Shown one piece after another: positions 6,576 through 40,366 of a DNA stretch of 40,682 nt. The notes below the pieces were generated by a model that was not told the origin of the DNA, did not search any database, and saw nothing but the letters and a program-made list of their open reading frames with translations. Position numbers and translations under genes: made by a program. Numbering within the stretch: the stretch's first letter is position 1; each line of letters opens with the position of its first letter. The DNA is from an uncultured Verrucomicrobiales bacterium (GTDB lineage Bacteria; Verrucomicrobiota; Verrucomicrobiia; Verrucomicrobiales; Akkermansiaceae), in the NCBI GenBank assembly GCA_937958875.1, contig CALGMJ010000163.1, positions 1 through 40,682 of the forward strand, given 5' to 3'.

Positions 6576-7940
6576 ATGTCGACAAATCAAAAAATGCCAT
6601 CAAAGCCTACTAAGATTCTAGTTCTAGGAGCTGCCTACGGAACTGGGAATATGGGGGTGGATGCACTCCTGTCTGGGACGATTGCTTCCGCAGAACATTA
6701 TCAAAATCAGGCCGAAATTCTTCTGCTCGATTATGGGCATGTACCGAAAGAATTTGAAGTTCCATCGGGCCGGGGGAAGCGAGTGGTAAGACTTTTGAAT
6801 CTACGGTTTTCTTGGCGCCTACATTTGAGAAATAATGGCTTTCGCTTGTTAGCGCTGGCAATGGTGATGAAAATCTTGCCCTCATTTTGTCAGAAGCTCA
6901 TTGGTAAGATTCATCCTCTACTTGATGAGATTAGAAGTGCCGATCTTTGTCTCGCTCTCGCTGGAGGGGATAGCTTCAGTGACATCTACGGGATGCGGCG
7001 CCTACTGTATGTCTCTCTACCTCAGTTTCTCGTCGTCGCTTTAGGTCGCCGCTTAGTTCTTCTGCCGCAGACCATTGGTCCTTTCGAGCGGGGGAGTGCA
7101 AAAATGATTGCACGGTGGGTCATGAAAAAGGCATCGCAGGTCTATGCAAGAGACAGCAAGAGCCTAAGTCTCGCTGAAGAACTCTCTAGAGGAGCTGGGC
7201 AGGCTCCTAAGCTTTCGCAAGATATGGCTTTTGCTCTAGTTCCTCAGCCTCTTGAAGGTGGCTTTCCTGAGCTGAAAAATCGTCGCGATTCTAGCCGTCC
7301 TTTGGTCGGGCTGAATGTGAGCGGCTTGCTCTACGGAGGTGGCTACACTGGTCAGAACGAATTTGGAATTTCAGCTGACTATCATGCCTTGATGGAGAGG
7401 GTGATTCGCTATTTTATCGACGGTGAAAATTGCGATGTTCTCCTTATTACGCATGTGACTGGTGCGGAGGAAAATGACACTGACGCCTGCCGGGTCTTGG
7501 CGAAGAAAATGGAACCTGGTCTTCCTGGAGGTTCATTGATCGTTGCTTCACCAGATTATGATCATCGCCAAATTAAGAGCTTAATTGGCCATTGCGAGTT
7601 CATGCTGGGTTCCCGCATGCACGCTACGATTGCGGCTCTTTCTCAGGGGGTGCCAGCGGTGGGTTTAGCTTATAGTCGGAAGTTTATCGGAGTTTATGAG
7701 ACCATCAATGCCGCAGCGCTTGTCGTAGATCTTCGCTCAAAACCCCTCGAACAGGTAATGATTGAGATTAAGAAACTCTATAAGCGTCGCGCTGAGTTTG
7801 CCGAGATTCTCAAGCCCGAAGTTCAGGAGGCAAAAAGGTCTGCGGAGACTCTCTTGGAAGAAATTATGTCTCCTTCAAGAGAAGATAAGTTTGTCGGAAA
7901 GGGACAGCTGTCTTCTTCACAGCTCAGTTCAATGTCCTAA
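6576..7940 (+). CDS. Second polysaccharide pyruvyl transferase family protein (WcaK-like)
   Basis: A 454-residue member of the polysaccharide pyruvyl transferase family, closer to the WcaK type than the gene at 2336. It has the N-terminal GTGNMGVDALL motif, the LALAGGDSFSD strand, LLPQTIGPF, VYARDSKS and the diagnostic GSRMHATIAALSQGVPAVGL segment with its conserved Arg-Met-His. I chose the ATG at 6576 over the GTG at 6573. The roughly 35-residue C-terminal tail is Ser-rich. It begins 35 nt after the secreted-protein gene and lies 18 nt ahead of the polymerase gene. Likely role: pyruvylation of a sugar in the repeat unit, or a related transfer. Confidence 0.87.
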   Translation: MSTNQKMPSKPTKILVLGAAYGTGNMGVDALLSGTIASAEHYQNQAEILLLDYGHVPKEFEVPSGRGKRVVRLLNLRFSWRLHLRNNGFRLLALAMVMKILPSFCQKLIGKIHPLLDEIRSADLCLALAGGDSFSDIYGMRRLLYVSLPQFLVVALGRRLVLLPQTIGPFERGSAKMIARWVMKKASQVYARDSKSLSLAEELSRGAGQAPKLSQDMAFALVPQPLEGGFPELKNRRDSSRPLVGLNVSGLLYGGGYTGQNEFGISADYHALMERVIRYFIDGENCDVLLITHVTGAEENDTDACRVLAKKMEPGLPGGSLIVASPDYDHRQIKSLIGHCEFMLGSRMHATIAALSQGVPAVGLAYSRKFIGVYETINAAALVVDLRSKPLEQVMIEIKKLYKRRAEFAEILKPEVQEAKRSAETLLEEIMSPSREDKFVGKGQLSSSQLSSMS

Positions 7941-7958
7941 ACGAAGAAAGGTAGGCTG

Positions 7959-9260
7959 ATGGAACCCATCCTTCTCATTGTTACTCTTATCTTGCTGGTG
8001 ATGCAGTTTGCTTTGCCTCATCGCTTAGCATTTTTGCCCTTGTTGATTGCCTCTTGCCATCTGGGGAATGTGGAAGTTTTGGGTGATTTTACTCCGGTGC
8101 GTGCTTTGATTGTGGCCGGAGTGGCGCGGGCCATGAGCACGGGAACATTTCAATTTTCATGGTCTCATCCATTGGATCGTCTTTTCGCAATCCTCGCGGT
8201 GATCATTTTGGTCAGCTCCATCGGCCATCAAGAATCTCTCTACAATCCTTATGTGGAAAGAATCGGGCTCGCACTCAATATCCTAGGCAGTTACTTGTAT
8301 GCGCGGGCTTTTGTTTCCACTCCGGAAGAGTATCGCTCGATGTTAATGGCCTTTGCCATCGTCCTGACTCCTCTCTCAGTGTGTCTCGCTGCAGAGCAGG
8401 TTTCTGGGAAGAACCTTTATCATGCCCTTGGCGCTCCGGGGGCAACTGCGGGAACTCGGAATGGGGAATTTCGTGCTCAGGGACCTTTTAATCATTCGAT
8501 TCTTTCGGGCACGGTGGGAGCGACGGCTCTTCCTCTCTTCGCTATTTTCTGGCGTCAAAAGAGAACCTTGGCGGTGGTGGCCATGGGGGCTTGCCTAGTT
8601 GGGGTGATCGCTTCCGGGTCGAGCGGCCCTTTGGTGGCGACGATGGCTTCCTTAGGGTTCTTACTCTTTTGGCGGTGGCGTCACCTGACGCGCACGGTTC
8701 GTCTCACGGTGATTGCTTGTTTGGTGGTGCTGAATTTTGTCATGGCGCGTCCGATTTGGTTTCTTATTGCTCGGATTGATTTAGTGGGAGGGAGTACGGG
8801 GTGGCATCGTTCAAAATTGATCGACTCCGCAATGACTCACCTTAATGAATGGTGGCTTTTCGGGACTGATTATACGCGTCACTGGATGCTGACCGGAGTG
8901 AGTTGGAATCCAAATCACACGGATCTTACGAACTACTATATTCATCTAGGCGTTCTTGGTGGGCTGCCGCTACTCATTTGTTTCATTTTAGTGTTAAGAA
9001 AATGTTTTCGCTTGTTGGGCGAGAAGATGGAGGAGCTTAGTGAGGAAGAATCTGAGGGCGAATTTGTGTTATGGACTGTCGGGGTGGCACTAGTCGCACA
9101 CGCGGTGAGCTTTATCTCGATCTCGTACTTTGGGCAAATGTATGCGCTTTTCTATCTCTTAATCGGAGTAATTCCCGGTTTACTGGAAGCAGAGGCAGAA
9201 GAGTTTGAAGAAGTTTTCGAAGAAGAGGTTATGTATGGAGAAGAGCCTCTGTTGTCTTGA
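7959..9260 (+). CDS. O-antigen polymerase/ligase-like membrane protein (Wzy/WaaL type)
   Basis: A 433-residue polytopic inner-membrane protein with about 10-12 hydrophobic segments. It has the layout of the O-antigen ligase/polymerase superfamily: a run of N-terminal helices, a region around FRAQGPFNHSIL, and a large hydrophilic loop containing NPNHTDLTNYYIHLGVLGG before the last helices. In Wzy and WaaL proteins such loops face the periplasm and carry catalytic Arg/His residues. It probably polymerises lipid-linked repeat units delivered by the Wzx protein at 12494. GAAAGGT lies just upstream of the ATG. The C-terminal 24 residues are unusually Glu-rich (EAEAEEFEEVFEEE) and presumably cytoplasmic. 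Confidence 0.85.
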   Translation: MEPILLIVTLILLVMQFALPHRLAFLPLLIASCHLGNVEVLGDFTPVRALIVAGVARAMSTGTFQFSWSHPLDRLFAILAVIILVSSIGHQESLYNPYVERIGLALNILGSYLYARAFVSTPEEYRSMLMAFAIVLTPLSVCLAAEQVSGKNLYHALGAPGATAGTRNGEFRAQGPFNHSILSGTVGATALPLFAIFWRQKRTLAVVAMGACLVGVIASGSSGPLVATMASLGFLLFWRWRHLTRTVRLTVIACLVVLNFVMARPIWFLIARIDLVGGSTGWHRSKLIDSAMTHLNEWWLFGTDYTRHWMLTGVSWNPNHTDLTNYYIHLGVLGGLPLLICFILVLRKCFRLLGEKMEELSEEESEGEFVLWTVGVALVAHAVSFISISYFGQMYALFYLLIGVIPGLLEAEAEEFEEVFEEEVMYGEEPLLS

Positions 9261-33138: not shown

Positions 33139-35424
33139 TTATTTAGAGGACTCTTTTTTCCGTTGTTCAGCGAGTTGAACGATGGAAGCAGGGAGGGTAT
33201 CAAAAATGGGCTTAGGCTCTGGACCTGAACTCAAGCGACCGAAATTAAGAACTCCAGTAGGACACTGCTGGACACAGGCAGAGCAGCGCACACACTCAGG
33301 ATCTTCCATCGGTTTGCCTTTATTGGCGAAGTTCATGATGTCGATGCCCTGGTGGCAAACGGAGGTGCAGACATTGCAGGAGATACATTTGTCCTTATCG
33401 GCAAAGATTCGGAATTTTCCAAAGGCTCGCTGGTAGATCTGCATGAGGGCGGCGAGAGGGCAGGCGAAGCGGCACCAGACCCGGCCAGAGAGGTGGAAGT
33501 AGAAGGAGACGCCAATCACTCCGGCCCAGATGAGATCGACAAAGTAGCTGTAGTTGAAAAATGGGAGACCATCGTCACTGAGCGGGCCACCGTAGAGAAG
33601 GTATTTGAGTGCTTTTTGCCACAAGCTCCCCTCATAAATCCACCCCATAATCTGGAGGCCCAGCAGGGCAAGAGCGAACCATAGGAAAACCTGGCCGACC
33701 ATATTGAGTTTCGTCCAGAAGGGGCCGTGCGGCATTTTCTGGCGATGCGCGTCACCCATGGTTTCGGCGAGAGCACCACAAGAGCAGATCCAGCCGCAGT
33801 AGGCGCCCTTTCCCCAGCGTCTTACGATGAGTGGGATGATCACAAAAGTTTGGATGATGCTAAGTACGAGCCAGCCGATCATAGGCTGGTCGGTGAAAAC
33901 GTTAAAGACAAAGAGGGGCCAGGCGAGGACGAAGCCGAAGGCACGCCAATAGGCGCGGCTATGTCCTGTGTCATCGTATTTCTCAAAAAAGAGGTCGGCA
34001 AAGCCAGACAGGGGTGCTCCATCTGCGAAGAGGCCATTGGTCCCCATCCATGGTAGGATGATGTAGGGAAGAATGAAAAGCGGGATCCACTGAACGAGAT
34101 TCAGGGTGATGGTCTGGCGTTTCACGTATGGTGTCTTACGTCGTTTAATTCGACGAATCCCGAAGATGAGAACGCAGAGACAGTAGGCGAGAGAGTAATA
34201 AAAGCCACGATCTCCGGCGGCGTTCTTGATGGAGGTGAAAAGATGGTTTGGTCCAAAGCTCGGTAATAGCTGGACGAGTCCATTCGGATCGAGTCCGAGG
34301 ACCGGAATGTCATTAAAGAGATTCTTCTTCCAGTGGTAGACCCAGAGCCCGACGAGGAGGCCGATGACGAGAGTGACCCACCAGCGGGTATTGCGATCGT
34401 TTGCAATATTGAGCCCAGAGCGACGGAAGAAATCGAGAGGTGCTTCACGACCTAAGGCTGCGAGCACGGCGTCATTTTTCAGAGACTCTTCTTCGCCATT
34501 CTTATGCTTCAGGGTGATTTCATCCTCTGTGATTTTGCTCGGGTTGGTATCGAGCTTGAGAGTAATCGCTCCGTTCTCGGCAAGGGCTTGCACTCTGGCG
34601 ATGTTCTCTGGCTTGGGGCGATTGAACTCGGGCTTTCGATAGGAAATGGTGACCCGGGCACCTTCTTCGGCTAGAGCAATTGCGGCTTCCGCAGCACTGT
34701 CGCCACCACCTACGACGATGATGTCTTTGTTTTTAAAGGTTTTTGGATCGTGTAGACGGTTTGAGACCTTCCCTAGGTCTTCACCGGGGATCCCCATTTT
34801 CCGGTAGTTTCCACTGCGGCCGATGGCGACGATACAGCGTAGCGCTTTTGTCGTTTTCTTCTCCTTACCTGTGTGATGCAGGAGGACGAGGTTTCCTTTC
34901 TTTTCGACATGGTCGATCATGCCTTCGGTGGATTCCACGCCCGCTTCAGAGACCTGACGTTTCATGTCTTCCAGAAGCTTTTCCTTCACATCGACGTCGC
35001 CTTCGTAGGTGATTCCTCCGGCGGGCTTGAGGTCGGTAGGGTAGGTGAAAATTGGTTTGGCTTTGGGGAAGTTAGCAACGGTAGAAAAGGCCTGACTGCT
35101 TTCATAGAGGACATAGCTGAGACCAGCTTTCTTAGCCTCCATCGCGGCAGAAAATCCCGAGACTCCTCCACCGATGATGGCGATGTCTACGGTATCATCT
35201 TCCTTTTCATCTCTAGCAGTAGGGAAGTCACTCTCAGCAAGAATAGCCTGAATAGCTTTGGCTCCTGTATCTGAAGAAAATTTGAGAAGGGGGATCCCTG
35301 TAAGGTCTCCTACGATGCGGATACCATCGACATTGGTTTGCCCGTGTTCGCCCACCTCTGGGAGTTTTTCGACAGTGCCGGCGGGCCATTTTCCATGCAG
35401 CCAGTGGTAGTATTTTTTGATCAT
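33139..35424 (-). CDS. FAD/NAD(P)H oxidoreductase fused to a NosR/CcoG-like membrane [4Fe-4S] domain
   Basis: A 761-residue fusion. Residues 82-340 form a thioredoxin-reductase-like flavoprotein: FAD loop IIGGGVSGFSAA (83-94) and NAD(P)H loop VVGGGDSAAEAA (237-248). No redox CxxC is present. The FAD-closing G-D motif that usually ends this fold appears instead at the N-terminus (DGIRIVGDLTGIP, 33-45). Residues 348-650 hold about six hydrophobic segments with CGWICSCG (543-550) and WCRFACP (650-656), as in NapH/NosR/CcoG proteins. Two ferredoxin-type motifs follow: C680/C683/C686/C690 and C711/C714/C717/C721. It should pass electrons from NAD(P)H through flavin and clusters to a membrane or periplasmic acceptor. 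It follows the headless TetR gene by 60 nt. Confidence 0.83.
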   Translation of the reverse strand: MIKKYYHWLHGKWPAGTVEKLPEVGEHGQTNVDGIRIVGDLTGIPLLKFSSDTGAKAIQAILAESDFPTARDEKEDDTVDIAIIGGGVSGFSAAMEAKKAGLSYVLYESSQAFSTVANFPKAKPIFTYPTDLKPAGGITYEGDVDVKEKLLEDMKRQVSEAGVESTEGMIDHVEKKGNLVLLHHTGKEKKTTKALRCIVAIGRSGNYRKMGIPGEDLGKVSNRLHDPKTFKNKDIIVVGGGDSAAEAAIALAEEGARVTISYRKPEFNRPKPENIARVQALAENGAITLKLDTNPSKITEDEITLKHKNGEEESLKNDAVLAALGREAPLDFFRRSGLNIANDRNTRWWVTLVIGLLVGLWVYHWKKNLFNDIPVLGLDPNGLVQLLPSFGPNHLFTSIKNAAGDRGFYYSLAYCLCVLIFGIRRIKRRKTPYVKRQTITLNLVQWIPLFILPYIILPWMGTNGLFADGAPLSGFADLFFEKYDDTGHSRAYWRAFGFVLAWPLFVFNVFTDQPMIGWLVLSIIQTFVIIPLIVRRWGKGAYCGWICSCGALAETMGDAHRQKMPHGPFWTKLNMVGQVFLWFALALLGLQIMGWIYEGSLWQKALKYLLYGGPLSDDGLPFFNYSYFVDLIWAGVIGVSFYFHLSGRVWCRFACPLAALMQIYQRAFGKFRIFADKDKCISCNVCTSVCHQGIDIMNFANKGKPMEDPECVRCSACVQQCPTGVLNFGRLSSGPEPKPIFDTLPASIVQLAEQRKKESSK

Positions 35425-35484
35425 GGGAGTGGAAATTAAGATGAGTTTTCTTTTTAAACTGGTTTCACGGTGAACACGAACTCT

Positions 35485-35982
35485 TTAGCGTGAGGGGTGC
35501 GCGGATTCTTTTAAGGCAAGTTCCGTTTGGAGTATCTGCTGGACCATTTCGAGAGCTCGTTCAACGGGCCAAGTGTCGCGTAAGTTTTGGCATTCTGTAG
35601 TCGCTCCGGAATAGAGGAGGAAAAGGTGTTCTCCAGTGAGCTCTGCGCGGCAGGGGGTGGTGATCTCAGCGCTAAGGGTGATTAGGAAATTACGAATAAA
35701 TTTCTTATGATTGATCACTTGCTGAACGATTTCAGCGTTAGTTCCGTAGCTGGCAAATAAAGCGTTGGTGTAGGGGCAGCCTTGAAATTGATTTCTCTCT
35801 AGGAAGGTTTGCAGATCCTGAAAGTATTGTATCATCTTAGCGGTGGCATCTTGGCGAGTCTCAGCGAGGATGGATGCATGCCGGGCGACTGACGCCTTAT
35901 GGATTTCTTGAAGTTCGGTTGCGCTCGTCTTTTTGCTAAGGGAGCAGGCCTCGCTATGAAGTGGGGTGTTTGGGGAGGTCAT
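35485..35982 (-). CDS. TetR-type ligand-binding domain protein without a DNA-binding domain
   Basis: A 165-residue paralogue of the TetR regulator just upstream. From about residue 40 it aligns with the second half of that protein: both have QGCPYTN or RGCPYTN, then LFLLYSGATTE-QNL and WPV at matching positions. The first 30 residues (Ser/Thr rich) do not resemble the helix-turn-helix. An in-frame TAA at 35989-35991 prevents an upstream start, and the 79-nt gap to the TetR gene holds a promoter and operator, so the DNA-binding part is absent. It may heterodimerise with the full TetR as an antagonist, or bind a ligand alone. Calling it a decayed gene is the alternative, but the frame is intact. 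Confidence 0.77.
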   Translation of the reverse strand: MTSPNTPLHSEACSLSKKTSATELQEIHKASVARHASILAETRQDATAKMIQYFQDLQTFLERNQFQGCPYTNALFASYGTNAEIVQQVINHKKFIRNFLITLSAEITTPCRAELTGEHLFLLYSGATTECQNLRDTWPVERALEMVQQILQTELALKESAHPSR

Positions 35983-36009
35983 CGATTTTTAGGAGTGACG
36001 TCAGTAAAA

Positions 36010-36025
36010 GGTAGACTGGTCTGTC
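36010..36025. promoter_or_regulatory. TetR operator B, in front of the headless TetR gene
   Basis: GGTAGACTGGTCTGTC matches 13 of 16 positions of the perfect palindrome at 40328-40343, with one half-site intact. The adjoining TTATTCCGGCGAA on the + strand is also nearly identical to the sequence next to that site. It sits 27 nt upstream of the start codon at 35982. Confidence 0.7.
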
Positions 36026-36053
36026 TTATTCCGGCGAAGTGGAAAAATGTCGA
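36025..36053 (-). promoter_or_regulatory. Promoter overlapping operator B
   Basis: On the - strand TCGACA (36053-36048) and AATAAG (36030-36025) are separated by 17 nt, and operator B follows directly. The same AATAAG with CCGG in front occurs at the YHS promoter with an 18-nt spacer, which supports both assignments. Confidence 0.5.
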
Positions 36054-36061
36054 TTTTTTGA

Positions 36062-36646
36062 TTAAGAAGATTCGCCATCGAGAGCATTTTGCCAGAGGTC
36101 TTTACAGGTTTCGAGAGCAGCTTTGACTGGCCAGAGTTGCTGGAGGTTTTGGCTTTCAGTGGTCGCTCCTGAATAGAGTAGAAAGAGACGGTCTCCTAGT
36201 TGGTTTGCCTTCTTTGTCGATGAGAATTCTCGTTTGGTGAGCTGGCGAAAGAATTTACGAACGGAGTCCTTATGTTGGTGGACCTGAGCGATAAGGCTAG
36301 TTTCCTCATCGGATAGAACTGCGGCGGTATTGGTATATGGGCAGCCACGGTAGTGGTTGTTTTTGAGATGTTTTTCCAAGTCTCGGAAATACTTTGTGAG
36401 AATCTGTAAGGCTGGAGTCTCAGCGTCGATGAGCTTCTCCCGGCTCTTCTCTGAGGCATCATGGATCCGGTTAAGCCAGGCCTCGCCGAGTTTTTCTTTC
36501 GACTTAAAGTTCGTATAAAAGGTGGCTTTGGCAGTTTTGGATTTTTCGATGATCTCATTGATACCGACTTCCTTGTAGCCGTGTCGGTGAAAGAGTTCCG
36601 CTGCGACGCTGAGAATACGATCTCGGGCTGAGGACTTCGGTTTCAT
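36062..36646 (-). CDS. TetR/AcrR-family transcriptional regulator
   Basis: A 194-residue one-component repressor. Residues about 8-55 form the TetR helix-turn-helix: RDRILSVAAELFHRHGYKEV, then INEIIEKSKTAKATFYTNFKSKE. The ligand domain contains RGCPYTN (Cys near 104) and LFLLYSGATTESQNL. The conserved Cys in the G-C-P-Y-T-N motif could sense electrophiles or aldehydes, which is inference. Operators are visible immediately upstream of its own start (36654-36669), in front of the headless paralogue and in front of the YHS gene. It therefore probably represses itself and the YHS/ThDP-enzyme/aldehyde dehydrogenase operon. It lies 67 nt after the aldehyde dehydrogenase stop. Confidence 0.9.
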   Translation of the reverse strand: MKPKSSARDRILSVAAELFHRHGYKEVGINEIIEKSKTAKATFYTNFKSKEKLGEAWLNRIHDASEKSREKLIDAETPALQILTKYFRDLEKHLKNNHYRGCPYTNTAAVLSDEETSLIAQVHQHKDSVRKFFRQLTKREFSSTKKANQLGDRLFLLYSGATTESQNLQQLWPVKAALETCKDLWQNALDGESS

Positions 36647-36653
36647 GATAGCG

Positions 36654-36669
36654 AACAGACTGATCTGTA
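36654..36669. promoter_or_regulatory. TetR operator A, autoregulatory
   Basis: AACAGACTGATCTGTA contains ACAGACTGATCTGT, which matches 12 of 14 bases of the core of the perfect site at 40328-40343. It ends 7 nt before the tetR start codon and overlaps the expected -10 region, so binding would block initiation. Confidence 0.65.
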
Positions 36670-36684
36670 TGCTTTTTCTGTCAA
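36656..36684 (-). promoter_or_regulatory. tetR promoter with consensus -35
   Basis: A perfect TTGACA lies on the - strand at 36684-36679. The -10 position at 17-nt spacing falls at 36661-36656 inside operator A, where the sequence (AGTCTG) is a poor match. The -35 is clear and the -10 is not. Confidence 0.4.
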
Positions 36685-36713
36685 GAGGGAGCTTGGCTAG
36701 GAAATTTAGCTTT

Positions 36714-38147
36714 TTAGCTTTGTGGGTCTCGAATGATGAGGTTTCGAATTTCAGTCATATCTTCCATGGCGAAGCGGATGCCCTCGCGGCCTAGGCCGCT
36801 ATCTTTGACTCCGCCGTAGGGCATGTGATCAACTCGCCAGGATGGGACATCTCCGATGACCACTCCTCCGACATCAAGAGTATCCCATGCTTGGTGGATT
36901 TTATAGATATCACGAGTGAAGATCCCGGCCTGAAGGCCAAATTTTGAATCGTTAACCTGCGCGAGGGCTTCATCGAACTCGGAAAACTGGCTCAAGATAG
37001 CGACGGGGCCAAAGGCTTCTTCAGTTTGGAGTTTTGACATCTTAGAAACGTTTTCGAGAAGAGAGGCATCTAGCATGGCTCCGTCTCTTGTTCCGCCGGT
37101 AAGAAGGGTAGCTCCTTCTGAAATGGCTTCCTGAATCCAATTGTCGAGCCGGAGTGCTTCGCTTTCTGCGATCATGGGGCCGATGAAAGTGTCTTCTAAG
37201 GCGGGGTTTCCTTTTTTTAGTTTCTGGGTGGCGGAGATGAGGCGGTCTCGGGTTTCCTGATAGCGGCTTTTGTGAATGATAATACGCTGCACTCCGATAC
37301 AGCTCTGGCCGGACTGATAGAATGCGCCGAAGATGATACGTTCGATGGCGTCATCGAGATCGGTATCATGGTCGATGATGACAGCAGCATTCCCTCCGAG
37401 TTCAAGTACGACCTTTTTCTTGCCTGCTCTAGCTTTTAATTGCCAACCGACGTCTGGTGATCCGGTAAAGCTGAGGAGCTTGAGTCGTTCATCAGTGGTG
37501 AAGAGATCTGCTCCATTACGGCTGCAGGGGAGAATGGAGAAGGCTCCTTCCGGGAGGTCTGTTTCGGCGAGTGTTTCTCCGATGATAAGTGCGCCAATAG
37601 GGGTGCGGCTGGCTGGCTTCAGGATGAAGGGGCAGCCGACAGCGAGAGCGGGAGCGATCTTATGAGCGGCGAGATTAAGGGGGAAATTAAAGGGCGAGAT
37701 GAAGGAGACGGGACCGATTGGGACTCGTTTCCACATGCCGCGATAGCCTCGGGCACGTTCGGAAATCTGAAGTTCCTGAAGCTCTCCATGTAGGCGGGTG
37801 GATTCCTCAGCTGCGATACGAAAGGTGTCGATGAGGCGGGTGACTTCACCGCGGCTATCTTTGATGGGTTTTCCAGCTTCGATGCAGAGGGCTTGAGCGA
37901 GTTCCTCCGCACGTTCGGTGAAGCGAGTCACGCAGTGGTTTAGAATGGATTGCCTTTCGTATGGTTTCAGCTGAGCCATAGGGGAGCTGGCGATTTCCGC
38001 CGCAGAGATGGCACGATCGATAGTAGCGCGATCGGCAAGGGCGACTCGGGTGGCGACTTCTCCAGTGAATTTGTCCGTGACTTCGAGGTCATGGTTGGGT
38101 TCCAGCGCCTGGTTAGCGAGGTAGTATGGATAGCTGGGCTGAAGCAT
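36714..38147 (-). CDS. NAD(P)-dependent aldehyde dehydrogenase
   Basis: A 477-residue aldehyde dehydrogenase superfamily enzyme. The co-substrate region contains GPVSFISPFNFPLNLAAHKIAPALAVGCP and ILKPASRTP. LSFTGSPDVG and LELGGNAAVI carry the general-base Glu, and FYQSGQSCIGVQRI holds the catalytic Cys. EEAFGPVAIL, FGLQAGIFT and MPYGGVKDSGLGREG close the fold as expected. The length is normal. It starts 12 nt after the stop of the ThDP enzyme, so the two are co-transcribed. The aldehyde may come from the ThDP enzyme or from outside. The subfamily resembles lactaldehyde/glyceraldehyde-3-phosphate-type dehydrogenases, but the substrate is not determined. Confidence 0.92.
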   Translation of the reverse strand: MLQPSYPYYLANQALEPNHDLEVTDKFTGEVATRVALADRATIDRAISAAEIASSPMAQLKPYERQSILNHCVTRFTERAEELAQALCIEAGKPIKDSRGEVTRLIDTFRIAAEESTRLHGELQELQISERARGYRGMWKRVPIGPVSFISPFNFPLNLAAHKIAPALAVGCPFILKPASRTPIGALIIGETLAETDLPEGAFSILPCSRNGADLFTTDERLKLLSFTGSPDVGWQLKARAGKKKVVLELGGNAAVIIDHDTDLDDAIERIIFGAFYQSGQSCIGVQRIIIHKSRYQETRDRLISATQKLKKGNPALEDTFIGPMIAESEALRLDNWIQEAISEGATLLTGGTRDGAMLDASLLENVSKMSKLQTEEAFGPVAILSQFSEFDEALAQVNDSKFGLQAGIFTRDIYKIHQAWDTLDVGGVVIGDVPSWRVDHMPYGGVKDSGLGREGIRFAMEDMTEIRNLIIRDPQS

Positions 38148-38159
38148 GAGAATGTGGGG

Positions 38160-39800
38160 TTAGAGGGCAGCGCTGCGCTCCGGGAGTTCGATGTTTAAAA
38201 TGCGGTCATTTTCAGAATAGTCGACTGGGACTTCGATGACGTGGATGCCTCCTTTTTCCTGGCAATTTTGAATGAGTGGAGCGAGATCTCCGGTGGTGGT
38301 GAGGCGGTGGCCGGTGGCCCCGTAGCTATCAGCATAGGTTTTGAAATCTGGATTCGTAAAATCGAGCCCAAAGGAGTCGAAGCGCATGTTTTCCTGCTTC
38401 CACTTGATCATGCCATAAGCGTTATCATTAAGAATGAGAACGACAAGGTCGAGCTCGAGGCGGACTGCGGTTTCGAGCTCCTGTGAGTTCATCATGAAGC
38501 CTCCATCTCCGCACACTGCAATGACTGGTTTTTCGGGGAAGACGATCTTGGCTGCGATGGCTGAAGGGAGGCCCGCGCCCATGGTTGCGAGTGCGTTATC
38601 GAGGAGGATGGAGTTTGGGCAATAGGCCTGATAGTTACGGGCGAACCAGATTTTATAGACGCCATTGTCTAAAGCTACGATGCTCTCAGCGGGCATGATC
38701 TTACGGACTTCTGAGACAAGATGCTGGGGATAGACTGGGAAGCGAGTGTCATCCTTTCCTTCTGCGAGGTGGGCCTGCATGGCCTCACGAGTCTTCATAA
38801 ACCAGCTGAAATCCCAGTGATCTTGTGGACGCAGGGCTTCGTTGAGCTGCCAGAGGCTATTGGCGATATCGCCTACCAATTCGACTTGAGGGAAATAAAC
38901 TGGATCTACGATGGCGGAGTTAAAATTTACATGGATGACCTTAGTTGCTCCTTTTTTCATGAAGAAAGGCGGTTTCTCAACAACATCATGGCCCACATTG
39001 ATGATGACATCTGCTTTCTCGATCGCTCGGTGAATGAAGTCATTTGACGATAAGGAAGCATTGCCGAGAAAGAGAGGGTGACGCTCATCGATGACTCCTT
39101 TTCCCATCTGGGTAGTGATGAAAGGAATGCCCTGTTTATCAACGAAGGAGCGGAGCTGTTTTGCGGTGAGTTTCCGGTTTGAGCCAGCAGCAATGACGAG
39201 GAGTGGGTGCTGCGCCTGTTGTAGTAGTTTCACTGCCTCCGAGATTGATTTGTGCTCGGTGAGAGGGCGGCGGACCATGCTTGCAGAGAGGGGTTCGCTA
39301 TCGGTATCTTCTGCGGCGATATCCTCTGGTAATTCGAGGTGGGTGGCGCCTGGTTTTTCTTCGGAAGCTCGGCGGAAGGCTTCTCGGACATGGGTGGGGA
39401 TGTTGTCTGCGCTGACGATTTGATGCGTGTATTTCGTAATGGGGCGCATCATATCGACCACATCGATAATTTGAAATTGGCCCTGCTTACTCCGGCGGAT
39501 CGGTTTCTGCCCAGTGAGCATGAGCATGGGCATCCCACCGAGCTGGGCATAAGCAGCTGGGGTGACAAGGTTCGTTGCACCAGGTCCGAGAGTGGAAAGA
39601 CAGACTCCGACTTCTCCGGTGAGTCGTCCGATGGTGGCGGCCATGAAACCGGCTGCCTGTTCGTGTCGGGTGAGGATTAGCTCGATGGATGAGCGAGAGA
39701 GTGAATCAAGAAAGTCGAGATTCTCCTCGCCTGGTATTCCGAAGATGTAGCGGACGCCTTCTTTTTCGAGGGAGCGGACGAAGAGATCTGATGCTTTCAT
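38160..39800 (-). CDS. Acetolactate-synthase-like ThDP-dependent enzyme (catabolic type)
   Basis: A 546-residue ThDP enzyme. The N-terminal PYR domain has GIPGEENLDFLDSL and the catalytic Glu in TRHEQAAGFMA, then GPGATNLVT and MLMLTGQKP. The C-terminal PP domain has the ThDP/Mg motif GDGGFMMNSQELETAVRL, ending LNDNAYGMIKWKQ. The order and length match acetolactate-synthase large-subunit-like proteins of the catabolic AlsS group. No small regulatory subunit gene is adjacent, and no isoleucine/valine biosynthesis genes are in the window. It starts 27 nt after the YHS gene and precedes aldehyde dehydrogenase by 12 nt. Other 2-oxo-acid decarboxylases or carboligases with the same fold cannot be excluded. 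Confidence 0.87.
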   Translation of the reverse strand: MKASDLFVRSLEKEGVRYIFGIPGEENLDFLDSLSRSSIELILTRHEQAAGFMAATIGRLTGEVGVCLSTLGPGATNLVTPAAYAQLGGMPMLMLTGQKPIRRSKQGQFQIIDVVDMMRPITKYTHQIVSADNIPTHVREAFRRASEEKPGATHLELPEDIAAEDTDSEPLSASMVRRPLTEHKSISEAVKLLQQAQHPLLVIAAGSNRKLTAKQLRSFVDKQGIPFITTQMGKGVIDERHPLFLGNASLSSNDFIHRAIEKADVIINVGHDVVEKPPFFMKKGATKVIHVNFNSAIVDPVYFPQVELVGDIANSLWQLNEALRPQDHWDFSWFMKTREAMQAHLAEGKDDTRFPVYPQHLVSEVRKIMPAESIVALDNGVYKIWFARNYQAYCPNSILLDNALATMGAGLPSAIAAKIVFPEKPVIAVCGDGGFMMNSQELETAVRLELDLVVLILNDNAYGMIKWKQENMRFDSFGLDFTNPDFKTYADSYGATGHRLTTTGDLAPLIQNCQEKGGIHVIEVPVDYSENDRILNIELPERSAAL

Positions 39801-39827: not shown

Positions 39828-40265
39828 TTACTTCGAAAGGGTCTTCCAGTTTTGGTCTGCGAGGGCGACGTTACTATCGAAATCTTGAGCGAATTTTTTG
39901 GCAAATTTCCGGTTTACCTGCAGTAGGAGACGGCCCTTGTGAATGCTGTAGACCTTTGGGTTAATGGAGATGAGTTTTCCCTTAGAGACGCCGAAGGCGC
40001 AGTAACCACCGTAAGCTGGGGTGTATTTTTTGGGGTTCTTCTTAAAGGCGCTCAGGTTCTGGGCAGAAGAGAATCGGTAGGTCGCGCCTTGATGGTTTGT
40101 GGAGAATTCGGCCTTTCCCTTGGTTGGCTTACTTTGGGTGAAATAGGCGACAGGGTCGTAACCTTTGATCGCGAGGCCTTGCTTATTGGTATTGACCGGA
40201 GCTGCGGTAGCTAGGGTGCAGGCAAGAGCTACGAAGATGGTGAGGGTTGTGAGGAATTTTTTCAT
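39828..40265 (-). CDS. Secreted YHS-domain protein
   Basis: A 145-residue protein with a signal peptide (MKKFLTTLTIFVALACTLATAA). The mature part is a single YHS-domain protein: GLAIKGYDPVAYF, then GATYRFSSAQNLSAFKKNPKKY and YGGYCAFGVSKG. The family occurs next to metal- and redox-related proteins and often carries one or two Cys; here one Cys remains in YGGYCAFG. It is the first gene of the probable YHS / ThDP enzyme / aldehyde dehydrogenase operon. Its promoter holds the best TetR operator of the window. The biochemical role is not known; periplasmic metal or ligand binding is a guess. Confidence 0.87.
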   Translation of the reverse strand: MKKFLTTLTIFVALACTLATAAPVNTNKQGLAIKGYDPVAYFTQSKPTKGKAEFSTNHQGATYRFSSAQNLSAFKKNPKKYTPAYGGYCAFGVSKGKLISINPKVYSIHKGRLLLQVNRKFAKKFAQDFDSNVALADQNWKTLSK

Positions 40266-40271
40266 CTATCT

Positions 40272-40366
40272 GGAATGGTGATTCTTTTGTGAACCAGTTT
40301 ATTGATGTGCTGGTTGTATTTCGTTAGAGACAGACCGGTCTGTCTTATTCCGGTGAATCACCATTC
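40272..40366. repeat. Perfect 13-bp inverted repeat bracketing the YHS promoter and operator
   Basis: GGAATGGTGATTC (40272-40284) and GAATCACCATTCC (40354-40366) are exact reverse complements 69 nt apart. One arm is in the spacer between -35 and -10 of the promoter, the other lies 6 nt before the YHS start codon. Between them are the operator and a 6-bp hairpin (AACCAG 40292-40297 and CTGGTT 40310-40315). Confidence 0.85.
40328..40343. promoter_or_regulatory. TetR operator C, perfect 16-bp palindrome
   Basis: GACAGACCGGTCTGTC is its own reverse complement over all 16 bases. Two related copies occur at 36010-36025 and 36654-36669 near the TetR genes. It lies directly downstream of the probable -10 of the YHS promoter, covering the transcription start. 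Confidence 0.85.

Follow-up and report, generated by a model that had tools for sequence, protein, structure and literature searches.

A TetR-type sensor domain lacking the DNA-binding head, encoded beside an intact TetR in an uncultured Verrucomicrobiales bacterium

Introduction

TetR proteins, defined by their DNA-binding head, make up one of the largest families of bacterial regulators. The closest described counterparts of a regulator deprived of such a head belong to the LuxR family. TrlR of Agrobacterium is a truncated TraR for which inactive heterodimers have been reported (PMC3907764; PMC11655674), and in the CerN/CerM pair of Cereibacter sphaeroides, a LuxR homologue lacking the helix-turn-helix (HTH) is described as antagonizing its intact homologue (PMC11655674). 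Among complete TetR proteins, Cys106 of NemR has been tied to the bleach response, according to a review (PMC7464077), and the NemR homologue AltR is reported to need Cys100 (PMC13178969). No description of TetR proteins devoid of their head was found in the open-access papers that we searched.

Here we analyze a 40,682-nucleotide stretch of DNA from an uncultured Verrucomicrobiales bacterium (the window), in which a headless TetR gene lies downstream of an intact tetR (Table 1). The genome of the window is designated G000, and three other genomes found to encode the same protein are designated G001, G027 and G266.

Loss of the DNA-binding head

The two genes are separated by 79 nt (35983-36061). 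Both open frames, of 165 and 194 residues, are intact, as the initial annotation had stated, and the ligand-domain blocks that it had pointed out (GCPYTN, LFLLYSGATTE and WPV) are common to the two proteins. A search of the own genome aligned the headless protein with residues 51-189 of the full TetR at 40% identity (E 2.4e-24). The Pfam family TetR_N matches the full TetR (E 9.8e-13), and no match to it was found in the headless protein of the window at E up to 0.1, nor in the other three headless proteins, read from an upstream start or from the previous stop, at E up to 1. Likewise, inspection by eye of 330 nt 5' of each of the four headless genes, in three frames, revealed no HTH. A hidden frameshift or a missed start is ruled out by the in-frame stop, the Pfam searches and the HTH-free other frames; the head is truly missing.

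Table 1. Features of the locus, of its presumed targets and of relatives with an eroded head. Positions are those of the window unless a locus is named.
Feature	Position	Strand	Remarks
FAD/4Fe-4S oxidoreductase	33139..35424	-	G001 also has one downstream of the headless gene
Headless TetR, 165 aa	35485..35982	-	Modelled as effector/dimerization domain only (alpha4-alpha9); residues 1-20 of low confidence and helix-free
In-frame TAA stop	35989..35991	-	6 nt 5' of the headless ATG
Putative 27-nt promoter/operator element, headless gene	36005..36031	-	Differs from the pattern at 3 positions; operator core at 36011-36024, ACAGACCAGTCTAC
Intact TetR	36062..36646	-	Match to TetR_N above cut-off; C domain with weak similarity to TetR_C_13_2
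Operator ACAGATCAGTCTGT 5' of intact tetR	36655..36668	-	Putative autoregulation
Aldehyde dehydrogenase	36714..38147	-	Gene 3 of the presumed YHS operon
Acetolactate synthase large subunit	38160..39800	-	NF006187/PRK08322, above cut-off
YHS domain-containing (seleno)protein family member	39828..40265	-	First gene of the presumed operon; NF041384, above cut-off
27-nt element before the YHS gene	40324..40350	-	Exact; core 40330-40343, ACAGACCGGTCTGT, perfect palindrome
Eroded-head TetR relative	L042:1300-1881
Eroded-head TetR relative	L043:1456-2016	-
Eroded-head TetR relative	L046:1456-2022	-

The remaining domain resembles the C-terminal part of TetR proteins. The best Pfam C-domain matches of both window proteins were to TetR_C_13 and TetR_C_13_2 (14.9 and 18.3 bits, against a gathering cut-off of 27); with TetR_C_13 (PF16925/PF21993), scores of 14.7 and 14.9 bits did not reach that cut-off, and the other headless proteins scored between 15.1 and 21.6 bits. 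An AlphaFold2 model built with 42 sequences (mean pLDDT 91) contains six helices, at residues 21-40, 46-63, 70-78, 83-105, 110-134 and 138-161, which we read as alpha4 to alpha9 of TetR; the blocks 1-10 and 11-20 have pLDDT values of 52 and 61. The top Foldseek matches of the model are of the TetR type, among them SCO4454 (TM 0.71, with a probability of 1.00 for the best match) and NemR (TM 0.66), with a best E value of 5.9e-3 and none below 0.001. As modelled, the headless protein thus has the C-terminal effector-binding and dimerization fold of TetR (alpha4-alpha9).

A conserved sensor core

Sixteen residues, namely G68, C69, P70, N73, H92, K93, R97, F99, F121, Y124, G126, E130, Q132, N133, W138 and P139, are present in all four headless proteins and in at least 28 of 32 intact relatives, and C69 is invariant throughout (4/4 and 32/32). 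Three positions, invariant among the 32 intact proteins, have changed. W23 is replaced by E and T74 by A in all four headless proteins, the former change being less certain as a gap faces the N-terminus of the headless proteins there, and R67 is replaced by Q, K or S in three of them, G001 keeping the arginine. These positions might relay the signal to the head. C69 aligns with the cysteine of the GC motif of NemR, which is Cys106 by count once two extra chain residues are subtracted, and, counted on the same alignment, Lys175 of NemR falls on Gln132 of the headless protein. At an alpha4 position where 29 of the 32 intact proteins have a cysteine, the intact TetRs of the window and of G001 (L007:812-1384) have a glycine; all four headless proteins have a cysteine aligned there.

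Distribution and selective constraint

A first search of 58 genomes, the own included, returned the same headless protein in G001, which belongs to the same genus (54% identity), and in G027, from another genus (50%). A profile of these three sequences then yielded a fourth, in G266, from a third genus. At the scale of the family, the profile matched 16 of 260 genomes at E up to 1e-6, and scores above 200 bits were confined to the four with a headless protein; samples of the order (386 genomes) and of the phylum (387 genomes), which overlap that of the family, gave no further match above 200 bits. N-terminal parts were inspected for those matches whose loci had been retrieved. These amount to 54 distinct frames, of which four are headless, three have an eroded head and 47 have a recognizable HTH. 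One scan for viral relatives of the headless protein found none. A search of plasmids gave four weak matches (26-31% identity), three of them annotated as TetR/AcrR regulators; for the fourth, the distributed gene table lists no gene in the stretch.

Codon-position identities across the six pairs of headless genes are 0.58-0.63 at position 1, 0.67-0.74 at position 2 and 0.31-0.42 at position 3, with dN between 0.42 and 0.54 and dS above 2 in three pairs and saturated in the three others. These values indicate purifying selection on the headless gene, including the copies of G027 and G266. Divergence of the headless gene between the window and G001 is nevertheless faster than that of three other genes: its dN is 0.44, against 0.32 for the intact tetR, 0.27 for the lipase-like gene and 0.12 for the oxidoreductase gene. 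The initial annotation had raised recent decay of a full-length second TetR and neutral codon evolution as outcomes that would refute its reading: the relatives have the same headless form, and the conservation of position 2 far above position 3 contradicts neutrality.

Origin of the headless clade

Maximum likelihood applied to 130 columns of 54 C domains groups the four headless proteins in a single clade (100/97) and the two neighboring intact TetRs in another (98/95), and the rows nearest the headless clade are intact proteins of other genomes, with moderate branch support (93/92, 96/67). Neither a tree holding the headless proteins together with the neighboring intact TetRs (p-AU 0.314) nor one holding them with the eroded-head group (p-AU 0.355) was rejected by the AU test. 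The neighbor as closest paralogue is thus absent from the best tree yet compatible with the AU test, and the deeper branching order of the tree is not firm. Recent local duplication of the adjacent tetR is not favored, since all headless proteins group in one clade across three genera. Whatever the deeper order, either the head was lost before the copies of the three genera diverged, or the gene moved between genera.

The three relatives with an eroded head, one match each in 3 of the 260 family genomes (G162, G262 and G234), form a clade of their own (100/100). Their recognition helix lacks A37, K38, A39, F41 and Y42, all present in 31 of 31 intact proteins, and in the recognition-helix region 1 of 14 positions is invariant among the three relatives, versus 47 of 112 in alpha5-alpha9. 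For the G262 protein, the sole one folded, an HTH-like head is still predicted (pLDDT 96.8). No operator was found before the two eroded-head genes tested. Judging from the recognition helix, this group may have lost DNA binding.

Operators and the 27-nt element

Operators were compared upstream of 42 of the 54 frames by means of a consensus, ACAGACnnGTCTGT, written after some of these loci had been seen. All 32 intact relatives have this palindrome, with at most one mismatch, beginning 22-70 nt ahead of their start. With at most two mismatches it precedes three of the four headless genes, G266 having five mismatches; two eroded-head genes show four to five, and the other four genes, a more distant intact group, zero to two. 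Only 9 of 2100 shuffled controls had two mismatches or fewer. The initial annotation had placed both a promoter and an operator in the 79-nt gap: the comparison across genomes bears out the operator, whereas a sigma-70 scan of 35380-36760 detected no promoter in the gap, so that the promoter of the headless gene is only inferred to lie there.

The exact palindromic core ACAGAYNNRTCTGT occurs at four sites in G000: before tetR, before the YHS gene of the window (40330), before a second YHS gene on contig C132 and inside an open frame on contig C189. The last was rejected as an operator given its position and the lack of a fitting gene, as was an exact 12-mer inside a gene on contig C124. A lax scan of the window alone, at three mismatches, found no excess (14 sites versus 13.7 expected). 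At one mismatch, per strand, the core and its reversed control occur 18 and 10 times in G000, 13 and 6 in G001, 18 and 11 in G027, and 18 and 22 in G266; the core alone, with at least one mismatch, is hardly above background and is weak evidence.

A 27-nt pattern, written from five sites already seen and then sought with at most three mismatches in the four draft genomes, returned those five sites and no other, and its reversed control none. The sites precede the headless genes of G027 (no mismatch), G001 (one) and the window (three), and the two YHS genes of G000 (zero and three); the element was not found in G266, and the extension of the core to 27 nt is missing upstream of both tetR genes (window and G001). 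The presence of the element at headless and YHS genes and the lack of its extension at tetR point to a headless promoter of the kind found at a target of the regulon and not at tetR itself. From these sites, the headless gene probably belongs to the regulon of the intact TetR.

The second YHS-domain gene (L142:2254-2751), whose operator (L142:2214) begins 40 nt before its likely start, is predicted to be a distant member of the same regulon. The other headless genomes showed no conserved link between TetR and YHS genes: in the stretches examined, no operator within two mismatches accompanies the YHS matches of G001 (one, weak) and G266 (two), and G027 gave no YHS match. In another metagenome-assembled genome, GSL.Bin15 (L065:2631-3221), an intact TetR of the same group lies near a gene that we read as YHS-type, preceded by an operator-like site (L065:4605, two mismatches), an arrangement that hints at independent support for the link. 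Nothing on point was found on a YHS-TetR link in the open-access papers searched.

Genomic context and partner presence

Gene order varies around the headless gene. Naming genes by our own reading of their translations, G001 presumably has cstA, tetR, headless, gdhA, maeB, FAD/Fe-S oxidoreductase and lipase, and G027 a transposase, headless, gdhA and maeB; in the window, the headless gene is followed by the oxidoreductase and lipase as in G001, and gdhA lies elsewhere in the genome (contig C235). The transposase-like gene upstream of the headless gene in G027 (L030:72-1364, minus strand) may have displaced a tetR. In G266, a long gene (7311-8759, minus strand) that we take, from its translation, to be sigma-factor-like is followed after 32 nt by the headless gene (L058:6763-7278, minus strand), which lacks an operator and may have been re-wired.

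When searched with a profile extending over the head, G266 (93% complete) showed no close intact TetR of the clade; the best of its full-length matches (C7:10877) falls in a distant one. None was found either in G027, whose headless gene has the exact 27-nt element; as this genome is 72% complete and keeps the element, an intact TetR was likely missed there, leaving G266 as the sole fair case of absence.

Possible roles of the headless protein

Four readings of the locus can be weighed. First, the headless protein could be a free-standing effector-binding feedback protein, a role that we tentatively favor, by a narrow margin, over that of a heterodimerizing anti-repressor. The intact TetR would repress the headless gene, both YHS genes of G000 and also itself; one of the YHS genes would be the first of an operon that also encodes acetolactate synthase and aldehyde dehydrogenase. 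TetR would be released by an effector, which might be an oxidant or a reactive electrophile sensed in the vicinity of Cys69, and the headless protein would then be made. The latter, folded as a homodimer with its sensor pocket kept, would bind or react with the same effector while making no contact with DNA, thereby buffering the signal so that TetR could re-close its genes, in a negative feedback. In genomes that lost the repressor, the headless protein would persist as an effector-binding protein. That the effector is an electrophile is our guess from the cysteine, the aldehyde dehydrogenase and the best NCBIfam match, the acrylate regulator AcuR, which lies far below cut-off (51.7 versus 247 bits). 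We favor this first reading because of the retained sensor core, the survival of the protein in G266 where no partner was found, and the eroded group; against it, the headless trait is carried by four sequences only, and the gene diverges faster between the window and G001 than the three others compared.

Second, and also tentatively, the headless protein may act as the dominant-negative partner that the initial annotation had suggested and pair with the intact TetR through alpha8 and alpha9, yielding one-headed dimers that cannot hold the palindrome. With the headless gene repressed by TetR, the outcome would be a positive feedback and a sharper and longer induction. Such an anti-repressor is consistent with the operator before three of the four headless genes, the adjacency to an intact tetR in the window and G001, and a common origin with the neighbor, which the AU test did not reject, and it has LuxR-family precedents in TrlR and CerN as far as the cited accounts describe them. 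Alpha8 is part of the dimer interface of TetR proteins. Part of the sensor core lies on this helix, so the conservation of the core fits heterodimers equally well, and alpha8 identity between headless and intact proteins (56.5%) is close to that among intact proteins (58.8%). However, alpha9 is less alike (27.5% versus 40.0%), and over alpha8-alpha9 the two own pairs (44.0%) match no better than the two cross pairs (43.0%); co-adaptation of the two same-genome pairs was sought and not seen. Moreover, orphans hardly differ from paired headless proteins (42.5% versus 43.5%), and G266 keeps the protein with neither a close intact TetR nor an operator.

Third, the freed domain might have acquired a role unrelated to TetR and bind another protein or metabolite, for example in the service of the glutamate dehydrogenase and malic-enzyme-like genes found 3' of it in G001 and G027, or of the sigma-factor-like gene 5' of it in G266, where the operator is missing. 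We consider this unlikely: the glutamate dehydrogenase gene lies elsewhere in G000, so that the neighbor is not constant, and the 27-nt element in three genomes favors a TetR-linked role. Finally, a decaying TetR pseudogene, which would suit the missing HTH, the rarity of the family and a divergence faster than that of the neighbors, is highly improbable: the orthologues, four in all and from three genera, are intact, their codon positions are strongly constrained and they share a promoter element.

Extending the feedback reading to both groups, the sensor domain of TetR may have been freed once or twice, through loss of the whole head and through erosion of the recognition helix, to give a stand-alone, repressor-controlled "satellite" that handles the effector in a feedback, a generalization that we regard as possible and hold with more doubt.

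Comparison with known systems

NemR, which is among the best structural matches of the headless protein and whose GC-motif cysteine aligns with that of the GCP motif, and its homologue AltR are described in the cited accounts as thiol-based TetR repressors, autoregulated from an inverted repeat. Unlike the headless protein, both have an HTH, and Lys175, the partner of Cys106 in NemR, falls by count on Gln132 here. As for truncated regulators tied to a regulon, they are known; a TetR-family "satellite" was not found described in the open-access papers searched. If such a satellite exists here, a one-component switch would gain a tunable feedback through duplication and loss of the head, and the headless/tetR pair would offer a two-gene system in which effector buffering can be tested against heterodimeric anti-repression.

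CerN, as reported, resembles the headless protein in being an HTH-less homologue beside an intact one, and differs in belonging to the LuxR family. The likeness to TrlR, within the published accounts cited above, extends further: both are relatives of a regulator that lack the DNA-binding domain, keep the signal and dimerization domain and are inducible, inducibility being predicted here. TrlR, however, is a LuxR-family protein that acts on an activator through inactive heterodimers, whereas here the family is TetR, the partner a presumed repressor and the heterodimer hypothetical. In its missing head and intact frame, and in a capacity to dimerize suggested by the modelled fold, the headless protein fits with the truncated antagonists of the TrlR type.
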